64,000 bases of DNA from Syntrophaceae bacterium. Lineage in GTDB: Bacteria; Desulfobacterota; Syntrophia; Syntrophales; Smithellaceae. Made by a program: the position numbers and the translations under genes. Location: contig WRPE01000007.1 of the NCBI GenBank assembly GCA_009773315.1, positions 1-64,000 on the forward strand, read 5' to 3'. Position 1 is the stretch's first letter. Every line of letters begins with the position of its first letter. Of this stretch, positions 1,370 through 13,557 are shown piece by piece. The notes below the pieces were generated by a model. The model saw nothing but the letters and a program-made list of their open reading frames with translations, was not told the DNA's origin and ran no database searches.

Positions 1370-1655
1370 AGAGGACCTCTGCTTCCGCAACAATTTTTTC
1401 TCGAAAATATTTACTCAGGAATCCGGCTGTACTCAAATCAACTTTCCGTCCGAGAATTTCTGATAGTTCCTGTTCCATTTTGAAAAATTGAAGCCCTACC
1501 TTTGCGTCGGGTTCAAATTCCACCAATACGTCTATATCGCTTTCAGGCGAAAAGTCAGCTCGCAACACCGAGCCAAAAAATGCCAGTTTGCGAATGGAAT
1601 TGTGCCGGCAGAATTCGGCAATTTTTTCTTCCGGTATGTCCATTTTTAATTTCAT
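1356..1655 (-). CDS. mntA: MntA-like minimal nucleotidyltransferase antitoxin
   Basis: This protein of about 99 residues is a minimal nucleotidyltransferase. The polymerase-beta-type signature GS-X10-D-X-D is complete (G28, S29, D40, D42). In studied pairs the antitoxin transfers AMP to the tyrosine of HepT and silences it. It is transcribed before hepT and the two genes overlap. No strong ribosome site is visible, and an internal ATG at 1643 is also possible as the start. This second toxin-antitoxin pair lies about 0.5 kb from the RHH/PIN pair. Confidence 0.8.
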   Translation of the reverse strand: MKLKMDIPEEKIAEFCRHNSIRKLAFFGSVLRADFSPESDIDVLVEFEPDAKVGLQFFKMEQELSEILGRKVDLSTAGFLSKYFREKIVAEAEVLYDAA

Positions 1656-1767
1656 ATTTTTTAACAACTGCAGCAGTCAGTTCCTCCGCCTGCTTTAAGC
1701 TTGTGATCAAATTCAGCTAGACAATAAGCCAATCTTCCCGACAAGTCAATAATGTTTCACTTATATT

Positions 1768-2763
1768 CTATTGAATCACCTTCAACACGATCTTTCCGAT
1801 GTGTCCGGAAGATTCCATCAGATCATGGGCTTTTGCGGCTTCGGCCAGAGGAAAGACGGCGGAAATCAGCACGCTTAATTTTTTTGCGGCAAAGAGCGGC
1901 CAGACATTTTCCAGCAGGGCTTTTGCGATAGCGGCTTTTTCTTCGATAGAACGGGGACGCAGCATTGAGCCGGTGAACGTCAGATTTTTGGTCAGGATCG
2001 GCAGGCAATCCAGTTCGATCCTGGAGCCCTGCAGAAAAGCGATTTGCACCAGCCGTCCGTTTCTGGCCAGAAGCTTCAGGTTCTTCTGAATATAAGGGCC
2101 GCCCACAAAATCCAGGATGCAGTTAATGTCTTGCGCGCCCGCAAGAGCGGCGACCTCCTGCGCCCAGTCTTGTGTTAAATAATCCAGCACGACATCCGCC
2201 CCCAGTTTTTGAACAGCCTTGATCTGATCGTCCCCGGCAACGGTTGTAAAGACTTTCGCGCCGAAGGCCTTGGCCAGTTGAATGGCGGTGTAGCCGATAC
2301 CCCCCGCGCCGCCGTGTGCCAGAAAATTTTCTCCCGCCTTCAGGCCGCTTCGTCCAAAGACATTCGACCAGACGGTAAAGTAGTTTTCCGGCAGCGCTGC
2401 TGCTGCGGCCAACGATAAGCCCTGCGGGATTGGAAGGCACTGAGATGCGGGCACGGCACAGTATTCGGCATAGCCGCCGCCCTGCGTGAGAGCACACACA
2501 GCGTCTCCAATCTGCCAGTGGGTTACGTCATCGGATTTGGCCACAATCAGTCCTGCAACTTCCAATCCCAAAACGGGTGAGGCGCCGGGCGGAGGCGGAT
2601 ATGCTCCCATGCGCTGGAAGACATCAGGCCTGTTGACGCCCGCGTAAGCGACTTCAATTAAAACTTCGCCTACTTTTGGTTGCGGTAGAGGCGCTTGTTT
2701 GATCTGCATGCAGGAGGAGGGGCCTCCCTGTCCGTGATCGATATACTTCATGGTGTCTTTCAT
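1768..2763 (-). CDS. zinc-free quinone oxidoreductase-like MDR protein
   Basis: This 331-residue protein belongs to the medium-chain dehydrogenase/reductase superfamily, quinone oxidoreductase (PIG3/QOR-like) branch. It would bind NAD(P)H through the glycine-rich segment at residues 150-158 (HGGAGGIGY). The cysteine cluster that binds structural zinc in alcohol dehydrogenases is absent. The N-terminal half carries the GroES-like fold with VAYAGVNRPD. The chosen ATG at 2763 has a GGAG seven bases upstream and lies four bases after the stop of the preceding TPP enzyme gene, so the two are probably co-transcribed. The substrate cannot be read from sequence; enones, quinones or acyl-CoA intermediates are all possible. 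Confidence 0.8.
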   Translation of the reverse strand: MKDTMKYIDHGQGGPSSCMQIKQAPLPQPKVGEVLIEVAYAGVNRPDVFQRMGAYPPPPGASPVLGLEVAGLIVAKSDDVTHWQIGDAVCALTQGGGYAEYCAVPASQCLPIPQGLSLAAAAALPENYFTVWSNVFGRSGLKAGENFLAHGGAGGIGYTAIQLAKAFGAKVFTTVAGDDQIKAVQKLGADVVLDYLTQDWAQEVAALAGAQDINCILDFVGGPYIQKNLKLLARNGRLVQIAFLQGSRIELDCLPILTKNLTFTGSMLRPRSIEEKAAIAKALLENVWPLFAAKKLSVLISAVFPLAEAAKAHDLMESSGHIGKIVLKVIQ

Positions 2764-2767
2764 TTCA

Positions 2768-4321
2768 TTACTCCAGCACCGCTTCAATTAAATATGGCCC
2801 CGGTTCTTTCAATGCCGTTTGAAATTCCCTGATAAAGGCCTCCGCCGTGTTAACGGATACGGCGGGAACACCCATGCCGCGGCTTAGGCTCACCCAATCC
2901 AAAGTCGGTTGATCCAGTTTCATCAGAGAGATTGCTTCTTTACCCAGAGTTTTATACCCGGCCCGCAGGCATTCCAGCTCTATGGTGAAGTATTTGCGAT
3001 TGGAGCATATTACGGTAATGACCTTCGCCTTTTCATGCGCCTGCGACCAGAGCGCCTGCAGTGTGTACATGGCGCTGCCGTCTGCCTGAATATCGATAAC
3101 CTGACGATCCGGCGCGGCAAGCGCAGCACCCAACGCCAGAGGCATGCCCATGCCGATTGCGCCGCCGGTGAGCGTCATATGGCTGTAAGGTTTTAAATAA
3201 GGCGAGTAAGTGTAATAGAAAGCGCCCGAGGACACGCCTTCTTCGACCACAATGCAATGCTCCGGCTGGAGGGCGGCAATCACCTCGCACATTTTCTGGG
3301 CATTTAACGGGCCTGCAGGCAAGGCCGGTATCGCGTAGTGAGCCAGCAACGGACGAAGCTCGTTTTGTCCAACAGCAGGTCCAAGAGCCGCGGCAAGCGC
3401 TTCGAGGACAAGCCCTGCATCTTGCTTTAGGGTGTCAATACGGATACGAGGAGACATTTCCGGCAGGAAAGAGGTTACACCTCCCGCATAGCCGAAGAAA
3501 GCATTAGGTTCGGAAGCGCCCACCATGACAAAGGCGTCGTAACGGGCAAGAAATTTTTGTGCCTGTCCGGGAAAGTAGGGAATACGCTTCAAGACGGGCA
3601 AGCCAACACCTGCATCAAAATACGAGGGAAAGGTGATCATCAAAAGATCGCAGCCGGTTTTCGCTTTAATTTGCGTCGCCGCCGCCAGTCCCTGTTGGCG
3701 CAGAGCTCTGTCCCCAAGAATTAAGGCGGGGTTTTTTGCTTCTTGGATTATTGAGACGGCATGTGGAATCATCTCCTCATCCACAGCATCAAATGAAAAT
3801 GGAGTTCGCGCGATCTCTTCCGTTTTGCAGGTTGCGGATTGGTGATCGGCGGGAACGATCATGGTGGCGATCTGACCATAGAGAGAAGCGGCAATGGCTT
3901 CGGCTGTGTCATGCGATAACTGATCGGCCGAGGTGCTTTCTTTTTGCCAGCCCGATACCGTGCGGGCCAGCGGCGCGATGTCCATATTCAGCGGCGGATC
4001 GTAAGGCCGAATCCACGTGGTATGTTCGCCGATGATATTCAGAACCGGCGACCGGGCGCGCCGTGCGTTATGGAGATTGGCAATGCCGTTGGCGAATCCC
4101 GGCCCCAGATGTAAAATCGTCATGGCCGGTTTTTGTTTGATCCGGCCATAGCCGTCAGCCGCACCCGTACAAACCCCTTCAAAAAGGCCCAGCACGGGTC
4201 GGATATTTTTGACCGTATCAAAAGCCGCAACCAGCGGCAGTTCCGTGGTTCCCGGATTGGCAAAACAAATTTCCACCCCCGCGTCCGCTGCCGTCTGTAA
4301 AATCACTTCCGCACCAGTCAT
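2768..4321 (-). CDS. thiamine diphosphate-dependent enzyme, acetolactate synthase large-subunit-like
   Basis: This 517-residue protein has the three-domain layout of TPP enzymes: N-terminal pyrimidine-binding domain, central domain, and C-terminal pyrophosphate-binding domain. The catalytic glutamate is E27 in NPGTTELPL. The diphosphate/metal motif begins ADGSAMYTLQ and ends about 27 residues later at a conserved asparagine. The family includes catabolic acetolactate synthases, benzoylformate decarboxylase and other 2-ketoacid decarboxylases. No small regulatory subunit is nearby, which argues against biosynthetic IlvB. The start follows AAGGAG closely; longer readings begin in non-coding repeat DNA. 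It probably acts with the downstream MDR oxidoreductase, but the substrate is unknown. Confidence 0.8.
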   Translation of the reverse strand: MTGAEVILQTAADAGVEICFANPGTTELPLVAAFDTVKNIRPVLGLFEGVCTGAADGYGRIKQKPAMTILHLGPGFANGIANLHNARRARSPVLNIIGEHTTWIRPYDPPLNMDIAPLARTVSGWQKESTSADQLSHDTAEAIAASLYGQIATMIVPADHQSATCKTEEIARTPFSFDAVDEEMIPHAVSIIQEAKNPALILGDRALRQQGLAAATQIKAKTGCDLLMITFPSYFDAGVGLPVLKRIPYFPGQAQKFLARYDAFVMVGASEPNAFFGYAGGVTSFLPEMSPRIRIDTLKQDAGLVLEALAAALGPAVGQNELRPLLAHYAIPALPAGPLNAQKMCEVIAALQPEHCIVVEEGVSSGAFYYTYSPYLKPYSHMTLTGGAIGMGMPLALGAALAAPDRQVIDIQADGSAMYTLQALWSQAHEKAKVITVICSNRKYFTIELECLRAGYKTLGKEAISLMKLDQPTLDWVSLSRGMGVPAVSVNTAEAFIREFQTALKEPGPYLIEAVLE

Positions 4322-4345
4322 ATAGTTCTCCTTGTATAATCCAAG

Positions 4346-4386
4346 GGGCGGGAAGACCACCGCAGTGGGGTGGCAAGACCCCGCCC
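4346..4386. repeat. GC-rich nested hairpin repeat in the thiolase-TPP gap
   Basis: GGGCGGG (4346-4352) pairs with CCCGCCC (4380-4386), and an inner CCACC/GGTGG pair is nested within. It lies in the 112-bp gap between the thiolase stop and the TPP enzyme start. There is no following T-run, so it is more likely a dispersed intergenic palindrome or an mRNA processing or stability hairpin than a terminator. Confidence 0.5.
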
Positions 4387-4433
4387 TACAAATCAAACCT
4401 AACAGCCTACAGTCTATAGTCTATTAGACTAAC

Positions 4434-5618
4434 CTACTTCCCCACCCACTCCCAGATGGCAGCTGCGCCCTGGCCGTGGCCGATGCACATGCTTTCAACC
4501 GCGTATTTGACGCCGTAGAAAGGCATTTCGTGCATGATGGTGGTGGCAATTCTGGCGCCGGTGCAGCCCAACGGGTGCCCAAGCGATATGCCACTGCCTT
4601 TGGGATTGAGCAGTTTGTGATTGCGGATGCCCAGCTCTTTCGTACAATAAACAGCTTGCGCGGCGAAGGCTTCATTCACTTCCCAAAGACCGATGTCTTC
4701 TTTTTTCAGACCCGCTTTCTTCAACGCTTTGGGAATGGCGAGCGCCGGACCAATGCCCATATACGCCGGATCAACACCGACGACGGCGAATTCCACCAGC
4801 CTCATTTTAGGCTTCAAACCAAGCTGTTCGCACTTCTCCTTACTGGCTACCACAACGCAGGCGGCGGCATCGTTGGTCTGGCTGGAGTTACCGGCCGTGA
4901 CCGTGCCTTTTTCATCTTTGATAAAAACCGGTTCGAGCTTGGCGAGTGATTCCATGGTGGTGGTTGGCCGAATGCCCTGATCGCGATCCACGATCATCTT
5001 TTTGGTCGAGCCGTCTTCCTGCGGCACGTCCGCCTCTATCGGCAGAATTTCTTCTTTGAACCATCCTTTCTGCGTGGCCTCATGCGCTTTAGTATGGCTT
5101 TCCACCGCCATCTCGTCCTGCTCTTTACGGGTAATGCCGTATTTTCGCGCAACCATTTCCGCCGTATAGCCCATCGAGACCATCTGCGGATCGGTAAAGT
5201 CTTTCAGGCGCGGATTCGGATCAGACATTGTGCCCATGGGGATATGCGTCATGTGCTGCACACCACCCGCCAGGATCAGATCCGCCCAGCCCATATTGAT
5301 CGAGGCGACAGCGAAAGCTATTGTTTGCAGCCCCGATGAACAGAATCGATCCACCGTGCACCCCGGCACGCTGTAAGGCAGTCCCGCCATGATGCCCGCT
5401 AAGCGGCCGATGTTGGAGCCCATATCTTTCATCAGAGCGGTTCCGCCCCAGATGACATCGTCAATCTGATCTTTCGCGCCTTCAATCCCGGCGCGGCGGA
5501 TGGCTTCATTCATCACCAGCGCGGACAGGTCATCGGCGCGCAGATGGGTAAACCACGAACTTTTCCCGGCCTTGGCAATACCCGTGCGTACACTTTCCAC
5601 TATGTAAATATCTTTCAT
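4434..5618 (-). CDS. acetyl-CoA acyltransferase (thiolase)
   Basis: This 394-residue thiolase cleaves 3-ketoacyl-CoA with CoA or catalyses the reverse Claisen condensation. The nucleophilic cysteine is C93 in DRFCSSGLQ. The NEAFAAQ segment is present. The catalytic histidine lies in GHPLGCTGAR, and the second active-site cysteine is C378 in SMCIGHGQG. Length is typical of tetrameric biosynthetic or degradative thiolases. The start has an AGGAG site; the open frame extends upstream only through a repeat element (5673-5789). It sits between the acyl-CoA dehydrogenase and TPP genes and fits a beta-oxidation or fermentation role. Confidence 0.9.
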   Translation of the reverse strand: MKDIYIVESVRTGIAKAGKSSWFTHLRADDLSALVMNEAIRRAGIEGAKDQIDDVIWGGTALMKDMGSNIGRLAGIMAGLPYSVPGCTVDRFCSSGLQTIAFAVASINMGWADLILAGGVQHMTHIPMGTMSDPNPRLKDFTDPQMVSMGYTAEMVARKYGITRKEQDEMAVESHTKAHEATQKGWFKEEILPIEADVPQEDGSTKKMIVDRDQGIRPTTTMESLAKLEPVFIKDEKGTVTAGNSSQTNDAAACVVVASKEKCEQLGLKPKMRLVEFAVVGVDPAYMGIGPALAIPKALKKAGLKKEDIGLWEVNEAFAAQAVYCTKELGIRNHKLLNPKGSGISLGHPLGCTGARIATTIMHEMPFYGVKYAVESMCIGHGQGAAAIWEWVGK

Positions 5619-5672
5619 ATATTTTATTCTCCTGAAATTGTATTTTTTGCATACTATACTGGATAGTTCTGG

Positions 5673-5789
5673 CATCGCAAAATGTCCCGTAGACAAGGCG
5701 CGCGAAGCACGAGGAGTGAGGCGTACCTTTGGCGTACGCCGCAACAACGAGGGCTGAAGCGCAACGCCGTATTCGGGCATTTTCCGATG
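5673..5789. mobile_element. MITE-like palindromic intergenic element
   Basis: This element of about 117 bp has imperfect terminal inverted repeats. CATCGCAAAATGTCCCG (5673-5689) is matched at the far end by the complement of CGGGCATTTTCCGATG (5774-5789). In the centre, GGCGTAC (5720-5726) pairs with GTACGCC (5734-5740). It encodes no protein and ends one base before the stop codon of the acyl-CoA dehydrogenase gene. Its form suggests a non-autonomous mobile palindrome or a REP-like repeat. Copies elsewhere in the genome cannot be seen from this window. Confidence 0.6.
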
Positions 5790-7622
5790 TCAGACCACCA
5801 GCGCTTCTTCAGGGCACGTCAGGACCGAATCTTCTTCGCTCTTGATCAGAGCGGCGGCGGTGGATGTGCCGGGTAGAATGTTGTTCAGATAATATCTGGC
5901 CGATGCGATTTTTCCATGGTAGTAATTGTAATCCGCATCGCCTGCTTTTAACACCGCGACTTTCTTCGCAGCAATCAACGCCTGATCCATCAGACACATC
6001 GCGACGTACACCTGAGAGAAAACAAACAAGGCCCGGATGGCAAAAAGCGGGATGAGCTGGCGTTTGGTTTCCATATTGTCGTACCACGAATCATACGTTG
6101 CCTTGACGTCCGCAGCCGCCTGGTAGCCTTTGTCCAGATTATTCATTTCTTTTTCAAAGCCCGTCGTTTTCATATTGGCGTCGATAAAATCTTTAATATC
6201 CTTCATCCAGGCGGCAAAAGGAATGCCATCTTTCATGCGCATCTTTCGCCCGATCAGGTCGTTGGCATGAATGAAAGACGTTCCTTCCCAAATGGTCAGG
6301 ATTTTGGAGTCGCGCAGATACTGTTCCACCGGATATTCCATCGTGTAGCCGACACCGCCCAGTACCTGGATCGCCTGGGCGATGACGCCGAGACTCGCTT
6401 CCGAACCGTAGCATTTCACCAGTGGCGTGAGGATCTCAGCAAAGGATGAATACTTTTTAGCTTTATCTTTATCGGAGGAGTTATTTTCAATATCCAGATA
6501 ATAAAATCCCCTGAAGATCATGGCACGAATGCCTTCCACATGCGCCTTCATATCCAAGAGCATGCGGCGAATGTCTTCGTGCTTAATGATTGCGACGCGC
6601 TCGGCCCCTTTGACACCGAACGGCCTTCCCTGAATACGTTCTGTGGCAAACTGCGAGGCGAAATAGTAAGCGGCCGCGCCCTGTGTATTGGCGTTATGTC
6701 CGGTACCGATCCGAGATTCGTTCATCATATGGAACATCATGGACAAGCCCTGAGAAAATCCTTTTGCGTCCGGAGCGGGTCCCAGCAGAATTCCGCGGCA
6801 ATTTTCTTCGTCGCCGAAATTAAGCAGCGCGGTTGCCTGCGCGTGCAGTCCCATTTTGTGTTCCACACCAGCGGTGATCACGTCGTTGAATGCGCCCATC
6901 GAACCGTCATCGTTGACCCAGTATTTGGGAACAATATAAAGCCCGATGCCGGGAGAACCGGCCGCAGCGCCTTCCGGACGCGCCAGCACCAGATGGATTG
7001 TATTTTCACAGGTTCCCTGATCGCCGGCGGTGATGAACATCTTAGTACCCTTGATTTTCCAGATGCGGGGATCATCCGTGGGATAAGAACGGGTAATGAT
7101 ATCGCCCGTATCGGAACCAAAGTTGGGTTCGGTCAGACACATGGTCCCCTGCCAGTAGCCGTCCAGCATTTTGGGGATGAACATTTGCTCATCTTTGGGA
7201 GTGCCGAAGCGTAGAATCAGGTTGGCCGCACCCGAGGTCAGCTTCACGCAGGACGTCAGTGCCGGACAGGCGGCGGTGTTAATTTCCGCATTGGCTTTAT
7301 AAAGCATCAACGGCATGCCGGTTTCCACCTTGATACATTCACTCGACGAGCCCCATCCGTTTTGCTGCAGAAACTGGTAGGCTTCCTTAAAGCCGGGCAC
7401 CGGTGTCACTTCGCCTTTTTCAAATTTCACGCCGATCTTGTCGCCCGGCGCATTGATAGGATTGACGATTTCTTTGGAAACCTTGTAGCCCTCGTTGAGC
7501 AGCATATCCACATCGTCGAGCGTGAAATTGCCCTTGAAGCGTTCGCAGTTCAGAACTTCTTCGGTCGGCAGCCATTCCTTCAAAATAAATTTCAAATCCC
7601 TGATGTCATACTTGAATTCCAT
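5790..7622 (-). CDS. acyl-CoA dehydrogenase (long, about 600-residue type)
   Basis: This 610-residue flavoprotein oxidises an acyl-CoA to the 2-enoyl-CoA, passing electrons to ETF, or may run in reverse. The FAD-binding signature CLTEPNFGSDTGD and the catalytic-base region ILTIWEGTSFIHAND, with its glutamate, are both visible. It has the extra C-terminal domain of the longer family branch that includes DmdC-like enzymes, beyond the roughly 380 residues of classic short-chain enzymes. The start has a GGGAGG site. It is flanked by the AOR-ADH fusion and a thiolase, which supports a role in one acyl-CoA pathway. The stop codon directly abuts a palindromic element. Confidence 0.9.
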   Translation of the reverse strand: MEFKYDIRDLKFILKEWLPTEEVLNCERFKGNFTLDDVDMLLNEGYKVSKEIVNPINAPGDKIGVKFEKGEVTPVPGFKEAYQFLQQNGWGSSSECIKVETGMPLMLYKANAEINTAACPALTSCVKLTSGAANLILRFGTPKDEQMFIPKMLDGYWQGTMCLTEPNFGSDTGDIITRSYPTDDPRIWKIKGTKMFITAGDQGTCENTIHLVLARPEGAAAGSPGIGLYIVPKYWVNDDGSMGAFNDVITAGVEHKMGLHAQATALLNFGDEENCRGILLGPAPDAKGFSQGLSMMFHMMNESRIGTGHNANTQGAAAYYFASQFATERIQGRPFGVKGAERVAIIKHEDIRRMLLDMKAHVEGIRAMIFRGFYYLDIENNSSDKDKAKKYSSFAEILTPLVKCYGSEASLGVIAQAIQVLGGVGYTMEYPVEQYLRDSKILTIWEGTSFIHANDLIGRKMRMKDGIPFAAWMKDIKDFIDANMKTTGFEKEMNNLDKGYQAAADVKATYDSWYDNMETKRQLIPLFAIRALFVFSQVYVAMCLMDQALIAAKKVAVLKAGDADYNYYHGKIASARYYLNNILPGTSTAAALIKSEEDSVLTCPEEALVV

Positions 7623-7696
7623 CTTATCTGTTCCTCCCAGTATATTTTTATTTCTTTACTTCATAAAGTTATGGAGCACGGAGCATGAACCGCCGG

Positions 7697-10543
7697 CTAT
7701 TCATACATCGCCGTCAGCAATTCCAATATCTTGGATTGGCTGGGTGATGTCGGATCCGTCGCCATATTCACGGCGTCGCGCGACGTGTAAAAAGCGATTT
7801 CTTTGAGCGCGTCTTTTGTAATACCGTGGGATTTCAGCCTCTGATCAATACCCAGCTCACTGTAAAGCCAGCGCAGGCTTGTCTCCAGATCGCTGGATCG
7901 GTTGATCAGATAGGCCATATCCATGAAGGCTTCCTTGCAGGTTTCTTTGTTGGCTATAACAAAACCCAGCAGACCGAAGATGGCCGCCCGCCCATGCGGG
8001 AGGTGATAGTGAGCGCCCAGCGTATGGGTGAGGGCATGCCCCAGCCCTAATCCTTTGAGGAAAGCCAAACCGCCGCAAATGGCCGCCATGCACATATCCG
8101 TGCGCGCCCGAATATTGTCCGGCTGTTTGTAAGCGGTGACCAGACTGCGGCCGATAAGCTTGACGCCATAAAGCGCCATGGACTCGAAATAGGGATGATA
8201 AGGCGTGGCGAGCGATACGCTGCCTTCTATACAGTGAGCCAGCGCGTCAATGCCGGATTCAATCGTGAGATTGGGTGGCATGGTTTTGGTGAAAAGCGGA
8301 TCGACGACTGCCAGCTTGGGAATGAAATGATTGCTCATCAGGATGAATTTCAAGTCGCGGCCCTTGTCGGTGAGCACCGCGCAGGGATTGACTTCGCTGC
8401 CCGTCCCGGAGGTGGTAGGCACGCAGATAATCGGCGGGAAGATCGGTTTAATCTTGCCGCCGCCGCCGACGAGTCCTTCATATTCGCGCATATCGCCGCC
8501 ATGGGTAACCCTTAATCCCAGCGTTTTTGCCGTATCCATCGAACTGCCGCCGCCCAGGCCTAAAATGCTGTCGCAGCCTGTTTCCTTATAGAGCTTTCCC
8601 GCCCGCTCAATGAGTTCAATAGGCGGATCCGGCTCCACTTCTGCGAAAATCTCCGTTTCGAGGCCGCTTTTCTCGAGAATTTTTTGCACTTCTTCCGCGC
8701 GCCCGCTTTTCAACATAAAAGGATCGGTAACCAGAAAAACTTTTTTAACTTTCAGCGCTTTAATTTTCTTACCCATGGCCTGCGCTACGCCTTCGCCCAT
8801 CAGAATATCCGGCATAGGCGGGATGCGGATCTCCCAGGTTTTTTCCTTTTCTGTAAAAGCATCCAAACCCGTCCACAGGTTTTTAACTTCCTTTTCATCC
8901 ACATCAAAAATAGAACTGGTGGGGGCAATGAGTTCCTCTCGGAAAAAAGCAGGAATGACGGTGTCGATTTTACTGAATTGGGCCTTTTCATTGAAAGCCA
9001 GTTGATCACGCAGCGTTTGTTTGGCGATGTCCATGACATCGTCCGGCGACATGTTCAGAGCATAGCGCGCATTCATCAGATCGGCAAAAAAAGGATAAAT
9101 CGAAGCGCCGGGAACGGCATTTAAGCAGTAGCCGAAAGCATCGCAGGCGGCTGCTTTAATCTGGGTTTTGAGAGAATTTTCTATCTGTTCATTTTTGTCC
9201 TTGGGCAGGCGGTAGGTGAGGCCGGCTGTGTGATCCGCACCCATGGGAGAGGAAAAATATGTCACGCCTGTGCCTTTCACCGCGCGGGGATCATGCGCGG
9301 GAAGGGCCTGTCCCTTAAAAGCTGGAATTCTTTCGATGTGGAGGAAGCGGGCTGTTGTCACGACACCATTCGCCAACGCAAAACCCAGCGGTGTTTCTTT
9401 TTCGATTTCTGAAAGTAAAGCTGCCGCATCGTTTGCATCGCCCCATTTCATTTTCCCCGCTTCGGCGGCCACGCCTAAAGCGCTGCCGGTTTCTATGGCG
9501 TCGAGGCCCAGATCATCGCACGTAAACTTCAGCCGGGCAATGGCGTCGTTGTCGGTAATGCCCAGATTCGTGCCCAGAAGCGCGATGGTTTCATACTCAT
9601 AGGCCGCGCAGATTTTTTTGCCGTCCTTGTCTGGATAGATAATCGAACATTGCACCAGACAGCCGGGCATGCAGCCGTGCATTTTGCCGCCGCGTTCAAA
9701 AAGGATTTTCTGAATATTATTGCCACTGACCGCCACGAAATTTTCCGGGCGACCGGATCGATAGTTCATCGCCGGCAGCGTGCCGTGGCCGGCGGAGTTA
9801 TTGATGGCGAAGGGTGTTCCGAATCTGGAATACAGGCTGATGCTGACATCATGCTTGAGAACATCCGCCCAGTCCCGAACGGTTTTACGAAAAGCTTCCG
9901 GATTGGCGATGACCACCTGATCCGTTCCCGTTGGATCCAGGATAATCGCCTTGAGTCCCTTGGAGCCCATGACGGCGCCCAGGCCTCCGCGTGCGGCATT
10001 GCGCGACGGATCGCCGAAAATGTCGGTAAGCGATACGGATGCGCCCTTGTACTGTCGCTCACCGGCCAGACCCGTGGAGATCACGGCCACTTTGTCCGAG
10101 TATTTCTTGTGAAGGGCGGAAACCAACTCATAATTTTTCATGCCCCGGTATTCGTCGGCAGGCACGAGTTCGGCCTTATCTTTAGAAATGAAAAGACAGT
10201 AAAGCTTCCCGGGTTCAGGGATTTGCTCAACGATAATCGCACGCAGGCCCAGCCGATCGAGAAATTGTCCGGCCGGCCCTCCGGAATTTGCTTCCTTAAT
10301 CCCCTGCGTCAGAGGACTTTTAGCGCCGACGGAAACGCGTCCCATTTGCGGCGCCCGGGTGCCGGCTAGTGGCCCGCAGGCGACAATCAATTTATTTTCT
10401 GGTCCCAGCGGATCACAAAGTGGTTCAACTTCTTTGTTCAAAATTTTAGCAACCAAGGCGCTGCCGCCCAAATAATTCCACTGTGCAGGAAGATTTTCGG
10501 TGGATATTGTTTCATTGTTCATGGAAACGCGAAGGATTTTCAT
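7697..10543 (-). CDS. fusion of aldehyde:ferredoxin oxidoreductase and iron-dependent alcohol dehydrogenase
   Basis: This 948-residue protein carries two complete enzymes in one open frame. Residues 1 to about 530 match the tungsten aldehyde:ferredoxin oxidoreductase family. They hold the N-terminal pterin domain, cluster ligands C291, C295, C299 and C473 (in DAFGYC), an EYET motif at 316-319, and a DHT motif near 437. Residues from about 570 match iron-containing alcohol dehydrogenases: the GGGSSMD nucleotide motif at 664-670, and metal ligands D766, H770, H836 and H850 with family spacing. The first AOR cysteine spacing is CX3C rather than the common CX2C. A single polypeptide could interconvert a carboxylate, its aldehyde and its alcohol using ferredoxin and NAD(P)H. 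Given the adjacent 4-hydroxybutyryl-CoA dehydratase, succinate/succinate semialdehyde/4-hydroxybutyrate is a plausible substrate set, but this is inference. An AGGGGG site precedes the ATG. Confidence 0.9.
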   Translation of the reverse strand: MKILRVSMNNETISTENLPAQWNYLGGSALVAKILNKEVEPLCDPLGPENKLIVACGPLAGTRAPQMGRVSVGAKSPLTQGIKEANSGGPAGQFLDRLGLRAIIVEQIPEPGKLYCLFISKDKAELVPADEYRGMKNYELVSALHKKYSDKVAVISTGLAGERQYKGASVSLTDIFGDPSRNAARGGLGAVMGSKGLKAIILDPTGTDQVVIANPEAFRKTVRDWADVLKHDVSISLYSRFGTPFAINNSAGHGTLPAMNYRSGRPENFVAVSGNNIQKILFERGGKMHGCMPGCLVQCSIIYPDKDGKKICAAYEYETIALLGTNLGITDNDAIARLKFTCDDLGLDAIETGSALGVAAEAGKMKWGDANDAAALLSEIEKETPLGFALANGVVTTARFLHIERIPAFKGQALPAHDPRAVKGTGVTYFSSPMGADHTAGLTYRLPKDKNEQIENSLKTQIKAAACDAFGYCLNAVPGASIYPFFADLMNARYALNMSPDDVMDIAKQTLRDQLAFNEKAQFSKIDTVIPAFFREELIAPTSSIFDVDEKEVKNLWTGLDAFTEKEKTWEIRIPPMPDILMGEGVAQAMGKKIKALKVKKVFLVTDPFMLKSGRAEEVQKILEKSGLETEIFAEVEPDPPIELIERAGKLYKETGCDSILGLGGGSSMDTAKTLGLRVTHGGDMREYEGLVGGGGKIKPIFPPIICVPTTSGTGSEVNPCAVLTDKGRDLKFILMSNHFIPKLAVVDPLFTKTMPPNLTIESGIDALAHCIEGSVSLATPYHPYFESMALYGVKLIGRSLVTAYKQPDNIRARTDMCMAAICGGLAFLKGLGLGHALTHTLGAHYHLPHGRAAIFGLLGFVIANKETCKEAFMDMAYLINRSSDLETSLRWLYSELGIDQRLKSHGITKDALKEIAFYTSRDAVNMATDPTSPSQSKILELLTAMYE

Positions 10544-10736: not shown

Positions 10737-12197
10737 CTATTTCTTATCTTCTTTAACACCGGCGATTTTTTTGGCCAATTTCTTCTTTTGTTCGAGGTTG
10801 CCCTGACGGGCAATCATGATGCGTTGGGCCTGGGGCGAACCCGCGCCGTGCATTGATTCCGTGCGATAGCCGACAGCTGCCGTCCCCAGCGTGAGGTTTT
10901 CGACCAGACGCATGATCCGCGCGCGGTCTTCGCAGGATACATTGGCGCTACCTTTGAGGTATTTCTCCAGGACCTTGCCGATTTCCGGGTGCTTCATGTC
11001 TTTTTCAGAGGCCATGGTCACCATCATGCCACCTGCGATATCCTCGGCCAGACGGCAAATTTCGTAGGGGAAGCGCGTGACGTTCTGTTTGCAGACATTG
11101 GCCAGTAAAAGATCGATCAGATACGTGCCGGAGGCTGTTTTGTGGCCCTGTGCGGAACAGGCGATGCCGCAGGAAAACAATGTTTCGTTCAGATGCGTCA
11201 TCTCGATCAACTTATCTTTAATATGAGAAGCCTTGGCCGCGCCGTTGTAATCCGCCGCCGTAGCCGCCGCTCCAATCAGAACGTCGCCCACGCCGACTTT
11301 GCAGCCGCCGTAGCTCTGGCGGTGGTAGCCGGCAAAGCGTTCCACCAGCATGCCGCTGAATTCAGTTTCGCCGCACATCAAAACGTTTTCCCATGGGATA
11401 AAAACATTATCAAAAACCATCAGGGCTTCATGACCGCCAAACTGGGCATTACCCACATCAATGGTACCGCCTTCGAGCTTGCGGGTATCGCAGGACTGGC
11501 GTCCGTAAATATAATAGATGCCTTTTTCGTCCGCCGGACAGACAAACGACACGGCATAGTCGGCGTCTTCCTTGCTCATGGCAATGGTTGGCATGGCTAA
11601 AATCCAGTGGGAATTCACCGCGCCGGTCTGATGCGCTTTCGCGCCGCGCACAACGATGCCTTGATCATTCTTTTCCACAACATGGACAAACATGTCCGGA
11701 TCGGTCTGCTGATGAGGGGCCAGACCGCGGTCTCCCTTGACGTCTGTCATCGCGCCGTCTACGGTCAGGTCTTCTTCCTGAACCATTTTCAGGAATTTGA
11801 TAAACCGTTCGTGATATTTGGTGCCAAGTTTCTGATCCATTTCATAGGTGGTGCTGTCCACGGCGTTCATGGCATCCATACCCACGCAGCGCTGAAAGCA
11901 GGACGCCGTCTGTTGGCCTAAAAGACGCTGCATTTTGACCTTTTTCATCAGGTCATCCGTGCTCTGATGCAAATGCGTAAAGCGGTTTACTTTCTGGCCG
12001 GTCAAGTGAGACTTGGCCGTCATCAGCTCCTCGTATTCCGGTTTCTGCGCCAGCTCATAGGTCATCTTGACGGAATTCATCGAGGGGCGAATGATGGGAT
12101 TGTCCACCCAGTTTTTCACCAGCTCTCCCATCAGATAGATTTTAAAATTCATCTTACGCAAACTTTCTTCGTACTGCTCAGGCGTTTTAAGTGCCAT
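10737..12197 (-). CDS. abfD: 4-hydroxybutyryl-CoA dehydratase / vinylacetyl-CoA delta-isomerase
   Basis: This 486-residue flavoprotein with a [4Fe-4S] cluster belongs to the AbfD family. It dehydrates 4-hydroxybutyryl-CoA to crotonyl-CoA by a ketyl-radical mechanism and isomerises vinylacetyl-CoA. Cluster ligands can be lined up with the Clostridium aminobutyricum enzyme from memory: C100 and C104 in TASCFQRC, and H292 and C299 in GYHRQSYGGC. The C-terminal signature YRTESMHGAGSPQAQR is also present. The length equals the family norm. The ATG at 12197 has a strong GGAGG site. It lies between a thiolase gene and the AOR-ADH fusion gene, suggesting a 4-hydroxybutyrate-to-acetyl-CoA route. A CoA transferase for 4-hydroxybutyrate is not next to it. 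Confidence 0.93.
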   Translation of the reverse strand: MALKTPEQYEESLRKMNFKIYLMGELVKNWVDNPIIRPSMNSVKMTYELAQKPEYEELMTAKSHLTGQKVNRFTHLHQSTDDLMKKVKMQRLLGQQTASCFQRCVGMDAMNAVDSTTYEMDQKLGTKYHERFIKFLKMVQEEDLTVDGAMTDVKGDRGLAPHQQTDPDMFVHVVEKNDQGIVVRGAKAHQTGAVNSHWILAMPTIAMSKEDADYAVSFVCPADEKGIYYIYGRQSCDTRKLEGGTIDVGNAQFGGHEALMVFDNVFIPWENVLMCGETEFSGMLVERFAGYHRQSYGGCKVGVGDVLIGAAATAADYNGAAKASHIKDKLIEMTHLNETLFSCGIACSAQGHKTASGTYLIDLLLANVCKQNVTRFPYEICRLAEDIAGGMMVTMASEKDMKHPEIGKVLEKYLKGSANVSCEDRARIMRLVENLTLGTAAVGYRTESMHGAGSPQAQRIMIARQGNLEQKKKLAKKIAGVKEDKK

Positions 12198-12257
12198 GTT
12201 GTTTCCTCCTGACATCGCAACCAGATGGTTTCACAATGTTCTTAAATGTATTGATAG

Positions 12258-12375: not shown

Positions 12376-13557
12376 TTAGAGCATTTCTATAATAAATGCG
12401 TGACCGGGACCACCGCTGGCGCACAGAGATGCGCAGCCAAATTTTTTGCCGCGACGTTTGAGCTCATTCATCATGGTGATGATCAATCTGGCACCCGTCG
12501 CGCCGACGGGATGGCCCATGCTGATGCCGGAACCGACGGCGTTAATTTTGTCCAGACTAATCTTCAACTCACGATTGCAGCCGATGACCTGTGCGGCAAA
12601 TGCTTCGTTGAATTCAAAATAGTCAATATCTTCCAGTTTCATTTTTGCGAATTTCAATGCGTTATGAACAGCCGGAACAACGCCCATACCCATAATGCGG
12701 GGCTCGACGGAACCGGGGGCGGAAGCAACGACCCGGGCGATGGGTTTCACACCCATTTCTTTTGCTTTATCAGCGGACATCATGATCATACAGGAACCTG
12801 CGTCGTTGAGACCGGAGGCGTTTCCTGCCGTGACCGTGCCGTCTTTTTTGAAAACGGATTTGAGTTTGCTTAAGGATTCCATGCTGGTGTCGGCTCTGGG
12901 ATGTTCGTCTCTGTCGATTATGGCCGGGCCTTTTTTGGTTTTGACTTCCACCGGTACAATTTCATCTTTGAACCAGCCCTTTTCAATGGCGGCGCAGGCG
13001 CGCTGATGGCTCATCAGCGCCCATTCATCCTGCTCCTGGCGGGAAATTTTATAAAGGTCTGCAATATTATCCGCCGTAATACCCATGTGATAACCCAGAA
13101 GTGCATCCACCAGACCGCCGATCATCAGGCTGTCCTGAATCTTTTCACCATCGTTCAACCGGTAGCCTTTGCGGGCGCCGAAGAGCAGATAGGGGGCATT
13201 GCTCATGCTTTCAATCCCGACAACGGCACCGATGTCAATCTTGCCCAGCATAATCTCCTGTGAAAGTAATTCGGAGGCGCGCATGGAAGAGGGACACTGC
13301 TGATGAACCGTAAAAGCGAAAGACTCCACCGGCAGTTCCGCACCCAAAGCAATGTGACGGGCGCTATTTCCCGGCGCACCGGCCTGGTTGCACTGGCCGG
13401 CAATGACTTCCTGTACCAGGTTTTTGTCAATACCGGCCTTGGCGATGGCCGCCTTTAAGACAGTCACGCCCAGTTGAACAGGAGTCAAGCCCGAAAGCGA
13501 CCCCATATAATCTCCAATGGCTGTCCTCACTCCACTAACAATAACAACTTCTTGCAT
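12376..13557 (-). CDS. acetyl-CoA acetyltransferase (thiolase)
   Basis: This 393-residue thiolase would cleave acetoacetyl-CoA or a related 3-ketoacyl-CoA. The nucleophile is C88 in HQQCPSSMRA, a variant of the usual QCSSG context. NEAFAAQ, GHPVGATGAR and a C-terminal CASGGPG complete the active site. It is a paralogue of the thiolase at 4434-5618 but clearly diverged. GAGAGG precedes the ATG. It lies upstream of the 4-hydroxybutyryl-CoA dehydratase gene, consistent with splitting acetoacetyl-CoA formed after crotonyl-CoA. Confidence 0.9.
   Translation of the reverse strand: MQEVVIVSGVRTAIGDYMGSLSGLTPVQLGVTVLKAAIAKAGIDKNLVQEVIAGQCNQAGAPGNSARHIALGAELPVESFAFTVHQQCPSSMRASELLSQEIMLGKIDIGAVVGIESMSNAPYLLFGARKGYRLNDGEKIQDSLMIGGLVDALLGYHMGITADNIADLYKISRQEQDEWALMSHQRACAAIEKGWFKDEIVPVEVKTKKGPAIIDRDEHPRADTSMESLSKLKSVFKKDGTVTAGNASGLNDAGSCMIMMSADKAKEMGVKPIARVVASAPGSVEPRIMGMGVVPAVHNALKFAKMKLEDIDYFEFNEAFAAQVIGCNRELKISLDKINAVGSGISMGHPVGATGARLIITMMNELKRRGKKFGCASLCASGGPGHAFIIEML

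Follow-up and report, generated by a model that had tools for sequence, protein, structure and literature searches.

We describe a single gene in which an aldehyde:ferredoxin oxidoreductase (AOR) and an iron alcohol dehydrogenase (ADH) are joined in one reading frame, in a 64,000-nucleotide stretch of a Syntrophaceae bacterium genome (GCA_009773315.1, contig WRPE01000007.1, positions 1 to 64,000 of the forward strand; hereafter the window). The joined form recurs in dozens of genomes, and the fusion seems to have arisen at least twice. The encoded protein is probably a bifunctional enzyme that links carboxylate, aldehyde and alcohol in both directions, with ferredoxin as the partner of one two-electron step and NAD(H) as that of the other. 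We infer from the sequence that both halves are catalytic, that tungsten is used, that ferredoxin and NAD are the partners and that the aldehyde is transferred from one half to the other.

A single reading frame encodes an AOR and an iron ADH

In the open reading frame list of the window, the gene (7697-10543, minus strand) is an uninterrupted, ATG-started frame of 948 codons, in which a complete AOR half (residues 1 to ~565) is followed by a complete iron-ADH half (residues ~575-948). Four Pfam domains lie well above their cut-offs, including AFOR_N (196 bits versus 29.8) and AFOR_C (160 bits versus 27), which are the domains of the AOR/WOR family (Table 1). Over the whole protein, Pfam detected AFOR and Fe-ADH domains only, and the N-terminal NAD-dependent aldehyde dehydrogenase (ALDH) domain of AdhE and BdhE was not among them. 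The initial annotation, made from the letters of the window, had read the frame as one AOR-to-iron-ADH protein, and this is borne out. As the AFOR_C match ends at profile position 344 of 385, a truncated AOR half was considered; it was ruled out, since the standalone relatives stop there too and share the FDV tail. Residues 541-557 are the ordinary C-terminus of a short AOR subfamily and not a linker, so that the true linker comprises only ~10-20 residues.

The joined gene is widespread and its junction is under selection

A total of 35 intact copies of this fusion, hereafter type A, were found in ~34 genomes after dropping identical copies (at least 930 amino acids, junction without a stop). 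In the genomes searched, these homologues are ~50-99% identical to the window protein across the fusion length, and their hosts are mainly Smithellaceae, other Syntrophales and Desulfobacterales. The possibility, raised with the initial annotation, that homologues are always split therefore does not hold. No relative of the fusion was found in the viral contigs searched.

The open frame recurs in independent assemblies (L038 and L039) at 97-99% identity. In an alignment of 32 full-length copies, 216 columns show no variation; among them are C295, C299, C473, D766, H770, H836 and H850 as well as P541, F546, D547 and W557 at the junction, and C291 is retained in 31 of the 32. Thus, the eight metal ligands listed in the initial annotation are present as described, and seven of them are invariant. 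Moreover, wherever the synonymous rate (dS) could be estimated between the host and its relatives, the non-synonymous rate (dN) was far below it in the AOR half, in the ADH half and in the junction. This indicates that the junction is under purifying selection. Because the frame is open in independent assemblies and dN is far below dS across the junction, the hidden stop or frameshift near residue 540 that could have undone the initial annotation is excluded. The idea that an assembly or frameshift error merged two adjacent genes could draw on the metagenomic origin of the host and related assemblies and on a few broken copies (L059, L072, L074 and L076), but it is already refuted by the 35 intact homologues, which come from many assemblies, share the same junction with invariant residues and show low dN relative to dS there, and we give it next to no probability.

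The broken copies, which also include L024, carry frameshifts, deletions or an in-frame TGA and reflect either sequencing error or real decay. One genome holds a tandem pair of fusion genes (L040:4881-10847), whose products share 77 and 83% identity with that of the window. The type A fusion is also present in bins labelled Spirochaetota (L066, a single contig of 3.5 Mb, where similarity stops early, at residue 801) and Dehalococcoidia (L073, at a contig edge); for these two, either horizontal transfer or misassigned bins may account for the finding.

A second fusion type and the number of origins

Searching the phylum, we found a second fusion in other Desulfobacterota. These type B proteins (978-989 amino acids, ~40% identical to the window protein) are represented by three intact cases (L107/L151, L108/L152 and L111/L154). 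The order of the halves and the ligands are those of type A, but type B has a tyrosine at the position of residue 417. In the AOR tree, type B is nested among standalone AORs with which it shares 53-59% identity (branch support 99), while type A forms its own clade with other standalone sisters, and a single clade of all fusions is rejected by the approximately unbiased (AU) test (log-likelihood 303 lower, p-AU 3.8e-5). Type B also groups with standalone ADHs in the ADH tree (support 97). However, one fusion clade was not rejected for this half (p 0.33) in an AU test that excluded long rows and contig-cut rows such as fusion L036. The ADH tree is thus compatible with one origin, and it is the AOR half that carries the case for independent origins.

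Separate AOR and Fe-ADH genes also lie next to each other, as is expected if the two reactions act in series. The host genome (G000) has two more such pairs, on contigs C56 and C69, with AORs of the classical CX2CX3C type. In L209, an Fe-ADH gene ends 82 bases upstream of an AOR gene of the type B clade. In L118 (approximately 1477-4380), the TAG that ends the AOR gene stands only a few bases before the in-frame ATG of the ADH, with an AGGAGG resembling a ribosome-binding site between them. This pair is one base change short of a fusion, and it is possibly a pre-fusion state or a candidate for stop readthrough. The L209 locus (2847-9851) carries, in a row on one strand, genes for an Fe-ADH, a histidine kinase, a sigma-54 response regulator, a further Fe-ADH and the AOR, possibly an alcohol-sensing regulon.

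Both halves retain their ligands and most active-site residues

The best solved match of the N-terminal half is the P. furiosus AOR (1aor), aligned over residues 5-539 with ~29% identity. The catalytic set of that enzyme, T243, E311, Y312, E313 and H448 (PMC12096430), aligns to T243, E316, Y317, E318 and H438, and all five are invariant in the fusions. The half belongs to a short AOR subfamily (~560-600 amino acids, CX3CX3C, tail ending FDV or FDVD), whose standalone members include L035, L037, L075 and L102-L106. The initial annotation had pointed to the first cysteine spacing, CX3C, as a departure from the common CX2C. The spacing is indeed CX3CX3C, but it is a trait of the subfamily and not peculiar to the fusion, as 39 of the 44 standalone AOR rows examined share it and five have the classical CX2CX3C; a role as hallmark of the fusion is thereby ruled out. 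The motif can be aligned with the P. furiosus enzyme in two ways: without a gap, C291 and C295 fall on its C291 and C295 and M288 on its C288, whereas with one inserted residue C291, C295 and C299 fall on its C288, C291 and C295. Either register leaves four conserved cysteines, and the predicted model is too weak in this region to choose between them. C291, C295, C299 and C473 are the putative ligands of an Fe4S4 cluster.

For the C-terminal half, the best solved matches are methanol dehydrogenases of Bacillus methanolicus, aligned from residue ~575. The Fe-ADH domains, the Asp/His/His/His metal site with the spacing typical of the iron-ADH family (4, 66 and 14 residues) and the GGGS nucleotide motif (664-667, with D670) are the features of group III iron-dependent ADHs. 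By comparison with FucO, D607, which follows the second strand, may favour NAD over NADP. The metal ligands and the GGGS/D nucleotide residues are retained in both fusion types. Among NCBIfam models, ErcA (NF041833) scored best, with 265.7 bits against a cut-off of 550, followed by 4-hydroxybutyrate dehydrogenase (NF058672), with 240.4 bits against 500; since both scores are about half of the curated cut-offs, the ADH half belongs to neither family. Its closest free-standing relatives in the sampled Desulfobacterota share only 32-40% identity with it, and every match above 50% is a fusion or a piece of one cut by a contig end.

An AlphaFold2 model built from a 36-row alignment forms both folds (mean pLDDT 79, pTM 0.68). 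By Foldseek, it covers AOR (1aor, TM 0.78 by target) and Fe-ADH targets (3bfj and 3owo, 0.92) over their full length.

Proposed reaction

In the mechanism that we propose, the N-terminal half would be a soluble AOR with a W-bis-pterin and one Fe4S4 cluster, and the C-terminal half an iron (group III) ADH acting on NAD(H). The ADH half would catalyse RCH2OH + NAD+ -> RCHO + NADH, and the AOR half RCHO + H2O + oxidised ferredoxin -> RCOO- + reduced ferredoxin, each possibly in reverse (protons omitted). The shared aldehyde would couple the low-potential pool to the NAD pool with neither a CoA ester nor ATP. In the oxidative direction, the strongly favourable oxidation of the aldehyde would draw the unfavourable oxidation of the alcohol forward and hold down the level of toxic free aldehyde; the fusion would fix a 1:1 ratio of the two activities and hold the active sites close, and channelling would be possible.

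The idea that a shared aldehyde ties the ferredoxin-dependent step to the NAD(H)-dependent one was already part of the initial annotation, and it gains support from the conservation of both active sites and from the same logic in Solidesulfovibrio fructosivorans, where Adh3929 and Aor2487 have been put forward as a pair that converts ethanol and acetate into each other, using NADH and reduced ferredoxin and coupled to the hydrogenase Hnd (PMC10084766). This pair is likewise an iron ADH and an AOR acting on a shared aldehyde; however, the two are separate proteins from separate genes, which are regulated differently (PMC10084766). The situation is similar in P. carbinolicus, with tungsten-dependent AORs and an NAD-ADH in Pelobacter ethanol oxidation (PMC4275255). 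As to direction, we lean towards a net oxidative role, in which alcohols or aldehydes become acids that then feed into beta-oxidation, given the acyl-CoA ligase genes beside some fusions and the syntrophic lifestyle.

Several observations weigh against this proposal. In P. furiosus AOR, Thr243, Glu313, Tyr427 and His448 form a second-shell set that marks aldehyde-oxidising AORs as opposed to YdhV and BamB (PMC12096430); the Thr, Glu and His are invariant in type A, but the position of Tyr427 is taken by H417. This replacement is also known from the C. formicoaceticum AOR, which is active, and from ASOR, whose main reaction differs (PMC12096430). The confidence of the structural model is lowest near the AOR active site (pLDDT below 50 at residues 243-267 and 407-426) and only moderate overall, so that the model does not serve to judge domain packing or a tunnel. 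The surroundings of the fusion differ between genera, and no single substrate is therefore fixed by genomic context. Finally, no FeFe hydrogenase was found in the host genome, which rules out such an enzyme as the partner of the fusion there; reoxidation must therefore take another route than through a partner confurcating NADH and ferredoxin as in S. fructosivorans.

Genomic context and alternative functions

In the host, the fusion gene lies in a cluster on the minus strand in the order thiolase, AbfD, fusion, acyl-CoA dehydrogenase, thiolase, thiamine diphosphate (ThDP) enzyme and PIG3 oxidoreductase, which is retained in close relatives (Table 1). Elsewhere the neighbours are different. 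A type A fusion in L057 has an AMP-binding gene downstream, and a type B fusion in L205 is directly followed by an acyl-CoA ligase-like gene; in L207, a gene about as large as that ligase-like one comes first and an acyl-CoA dehydrogenase gene follows. These recurring genes of fatty-acid activation and oxidation fit acids that leave the AOR and are then activated. In L071 (10996-12844), genes for a B12-binding corrinoid protein and a URO-D-type methyltransferase are found directly downstream of the fusion gene.

Table 1. Fusion gene, its domains and neighbouring genes in the window
Feature	Position	Strand	Evidence
AOR-ADH fusion gene, 948 aa	7697..10543	-	Single open reading frame; 35 intact homologues; purifying selection on halves and junction
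AOR N-terminal (pterin-binding) domain, residues 2-203	9935..10540	-	Pfam AFOR_N 6.9e-58
AOR domains 2 and 3, residues 223-539 (T243, E316, Y317, E318, H417, H438)	8927..9877	-	Pfam AFOR_C 1e-46; 1aor alignment
CX3CX3C motif (C291, C295, C299); with C473, proposed Fe4S4 ligands	9647..9673	-	Conservation; subfamily trait
Junction, residues 540-578: AOR subfamily tail (P541, F546, D547, W557) and link to ADH	8810..8926	-	Conservation; FDV tail also in standalone AORs
Fe-ADH N-terminal NAD-binding domain, residues 579-749 (D607, GGGS 664-667)	8297..8809	-	Pfam Fe-ADH 2.2e-48; conservation
Fe-ADH C-terminal metal domain, residues 760-947 (D766, H770, H836, H850)	7703..8266	-	Pfam ADH_Fe_C 1.2e-33; ligands invariant
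Acetyl-CoA acetyltransferase (thiolase)	12376..13557	-	Pfam and NCBIfam TIGR01930 above cut-off
4-Hydroxybutyryl-CoA dehydratase (AbfD), upstream, co-directional	10737..12215	-	PDB 1u8v, E 2.6e-232; adjacency kept in close relatives
Acyl-CoA dehydrogenase, ~600-residue type, downstream	5790..7622	-	Pfam; PDB 8pns, E 9.7e-92, also FadE5
Second thiolase	4434..5780	-	Pfam and NCBIfam
ThDP enzyme	2768..4396	-	Solved relatives are benzoylformate decarboxylases; NCBIfam acetolactate synthase family
PIG3-family zinc-type NAD(P)H oxidoreductase	1768..2787	-	TIGR02824 above cut-off

The host cluster suggests a dedicated C4 enzyme, working on succinate, succinate semialdehyde and 4-hydroxybutyrate and feeding or fed by AbfD, with 4-hydroxybutyryl-CoA converted to crotonyl-CoA and then to acetyl-CoA via the two thiolases. 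Judged by its sequence, the AbfD of this Smithella-like syntroph is convincingly a 4-hydroxybutyryl-CoA dehydratase, it lies directly upstream together with a thiolase in the host and in close relatives, and 4-hydroxybutyrate dehydrogenase is the second-best NCBIfam model of the ADH half. In addition, the L045 fusion sits between succinyl-CoA-ligase-like and succinate-dehydrogenase-like genes, its neighbours further including a carboxyltransferase, OAD beta and an enoyl-CoA hydratase. However, that dehydrogenase model stays far below its cut-off, no CoA transferase for 4-hydroxybutyrate was identified beside the fusion, the adjacency of AbfD is limited to close relatives and other fusions have other neighbours. 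AbfD homologues are moreover common in the order, being present in 94 of 149 related genomes, often in several copies and with or without the fusion. The case for 4-hydroxybutyrate as a fixed substrate is weakened accordingly, and a dedicated C4 role appears unlikely.

An enzyme that works mainly as a carboxylate reductase, disposing of electrons by using reduced ferredoxin and NADH to turn acids into alcohols, would be in line with the reversibility of AORs and with the reduction of acids by separate AOR and ADH enzymes in acetogens, P. furiosus and S. fructosivorans (PMC12096430, PMC10084766). The sequence cannot reveal direction; yet the hosts are syntrophs and sulfate reducers, which usually dispose of electrons by other means, and acyl-CoA ligases beside some fusions suit the activation of acids after oxidation. 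We consider this direction, too, unlikely to be the main one.

The neighbouring ThDP enzyme, which resembles benzoylformate decarboxylases, raises a further option, namely that the fusion clears the aldehyde made by this enzyme, to acid or alcohol according to redox state. Besides the host cluster, L038-L040, L058 and L062 carry a ThDP enzyme gene, in L212 another comes after a standalone AOR from the sister clade, and aldehyde detoxification has been suggested as a role of AORs (PMC10816221). Most fusions, however, have no adjacent ThDP gene, and the identity of the enzyme is split between the acetolactate synthase family in NCBIfam and benzoylformate decarboxylases among solved structures, which leaves this role rather improbable. 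That one half is catalytically silent, as a scaffold or regulator, is very improbable: the best NCBIfam model of the ADH half, ErcA, is named an 'alcohol dehydrogenase-like regulatory protein', but the score is far under its cut-off, and the ADH ligands and nucleotide residues, as well as the AOR residues, are kept.

Relation to known systems and significance

The closest parallels in architecture to the proposed carboxylate-aldehyde-alcohol enzyme are AdhE and BdhE (PMC12454647), in which one chain likewise carries an N-terminal aldehyde-forming enzyme and a C-terminal iron-type ADH with the aldehyde as shared intermediate. Those ALDH-ADH fusions are convergent and arose more than once from adjacent genes, as here. 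However, their aldehyde half is an NAD-dependent ALDH, which in AdhE converts acetyl-CoA to acetaldehyde, whereas here an unrelated tungsten and iron-sulfur AOR would act on the free acid with ferredoxin; neither ferredoxin nor tungsten is mentioned in the AdhE/BdhE paper (PMC12454647). The AOR-ADH fusion would thus be an analogue of AdhE in its way of working and not a member of that family.

The AOR half shares with the P. furiosus enzyme and the AOR/WOR family the AFOR domains, the catalytic Thr/Glu/Tyr312/His set and four cysteines for one Fe4S4 cluster (PMC12096430), but differs from P. furiosus AOR, which has CX2CX3C and Tyr427, another C-terminal tail and no ADH. Standalone AORs of the short subfamily (e.g. 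L035, L102-L106 and L159-L175) have the same motif, length and FDV tail and are 53-59% identical to the type A or type B AOR half, differing in the lack of an ADH domain. In the three-subunit AorABC of Aromatoleum aromaticum (8c0z; PMC6365974), an AOR is also tied to NAD chemistry in one complex; there, however, the extra subunits serve NAD by re-oxidising the AOR itself, and no alcohol dehydrogenase is involved (PMC6365974). The initial annotation knew of no characterised AOR-ADH fusion, and our search agrees with it, since no published fusion or experiment on one was found in the open-access literature searched, subscription journals or database architecture tables being places that could hold one. 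The words 'fusion' and 'fused' are both absent from a 2025 review and from the 2019 paper on the A. aromaticum AOR.

We therefore raise, tentatively, the possibility that a tungsten, ferredoxin-dependent AOR and an NAD-dependent iron ADH, fused at least twice, form an undescribed enzyme class, a tungsten counterpart of AdhE that would pass the aldehyde directly between its sites and couple the ferredoxin and NADH pools of syntrophs with neither CoA nor ATP. Among aldehyde/alcohol fusion enzymes, this one is a chemically distinct addition, and it places a second natural example of convergent fusion next to AdhE and BdhE; with type A, type B and the L118 pair separated by one stop codon, the path from adjacent genes to a fusion becomes testable. 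If active, it would provide a one-protein route between free acid and alcohol, directly useful for acid-to-alcohol conversion, and would show how syntrophs balance ferredoxin and NADH while holding the aldehyde low.

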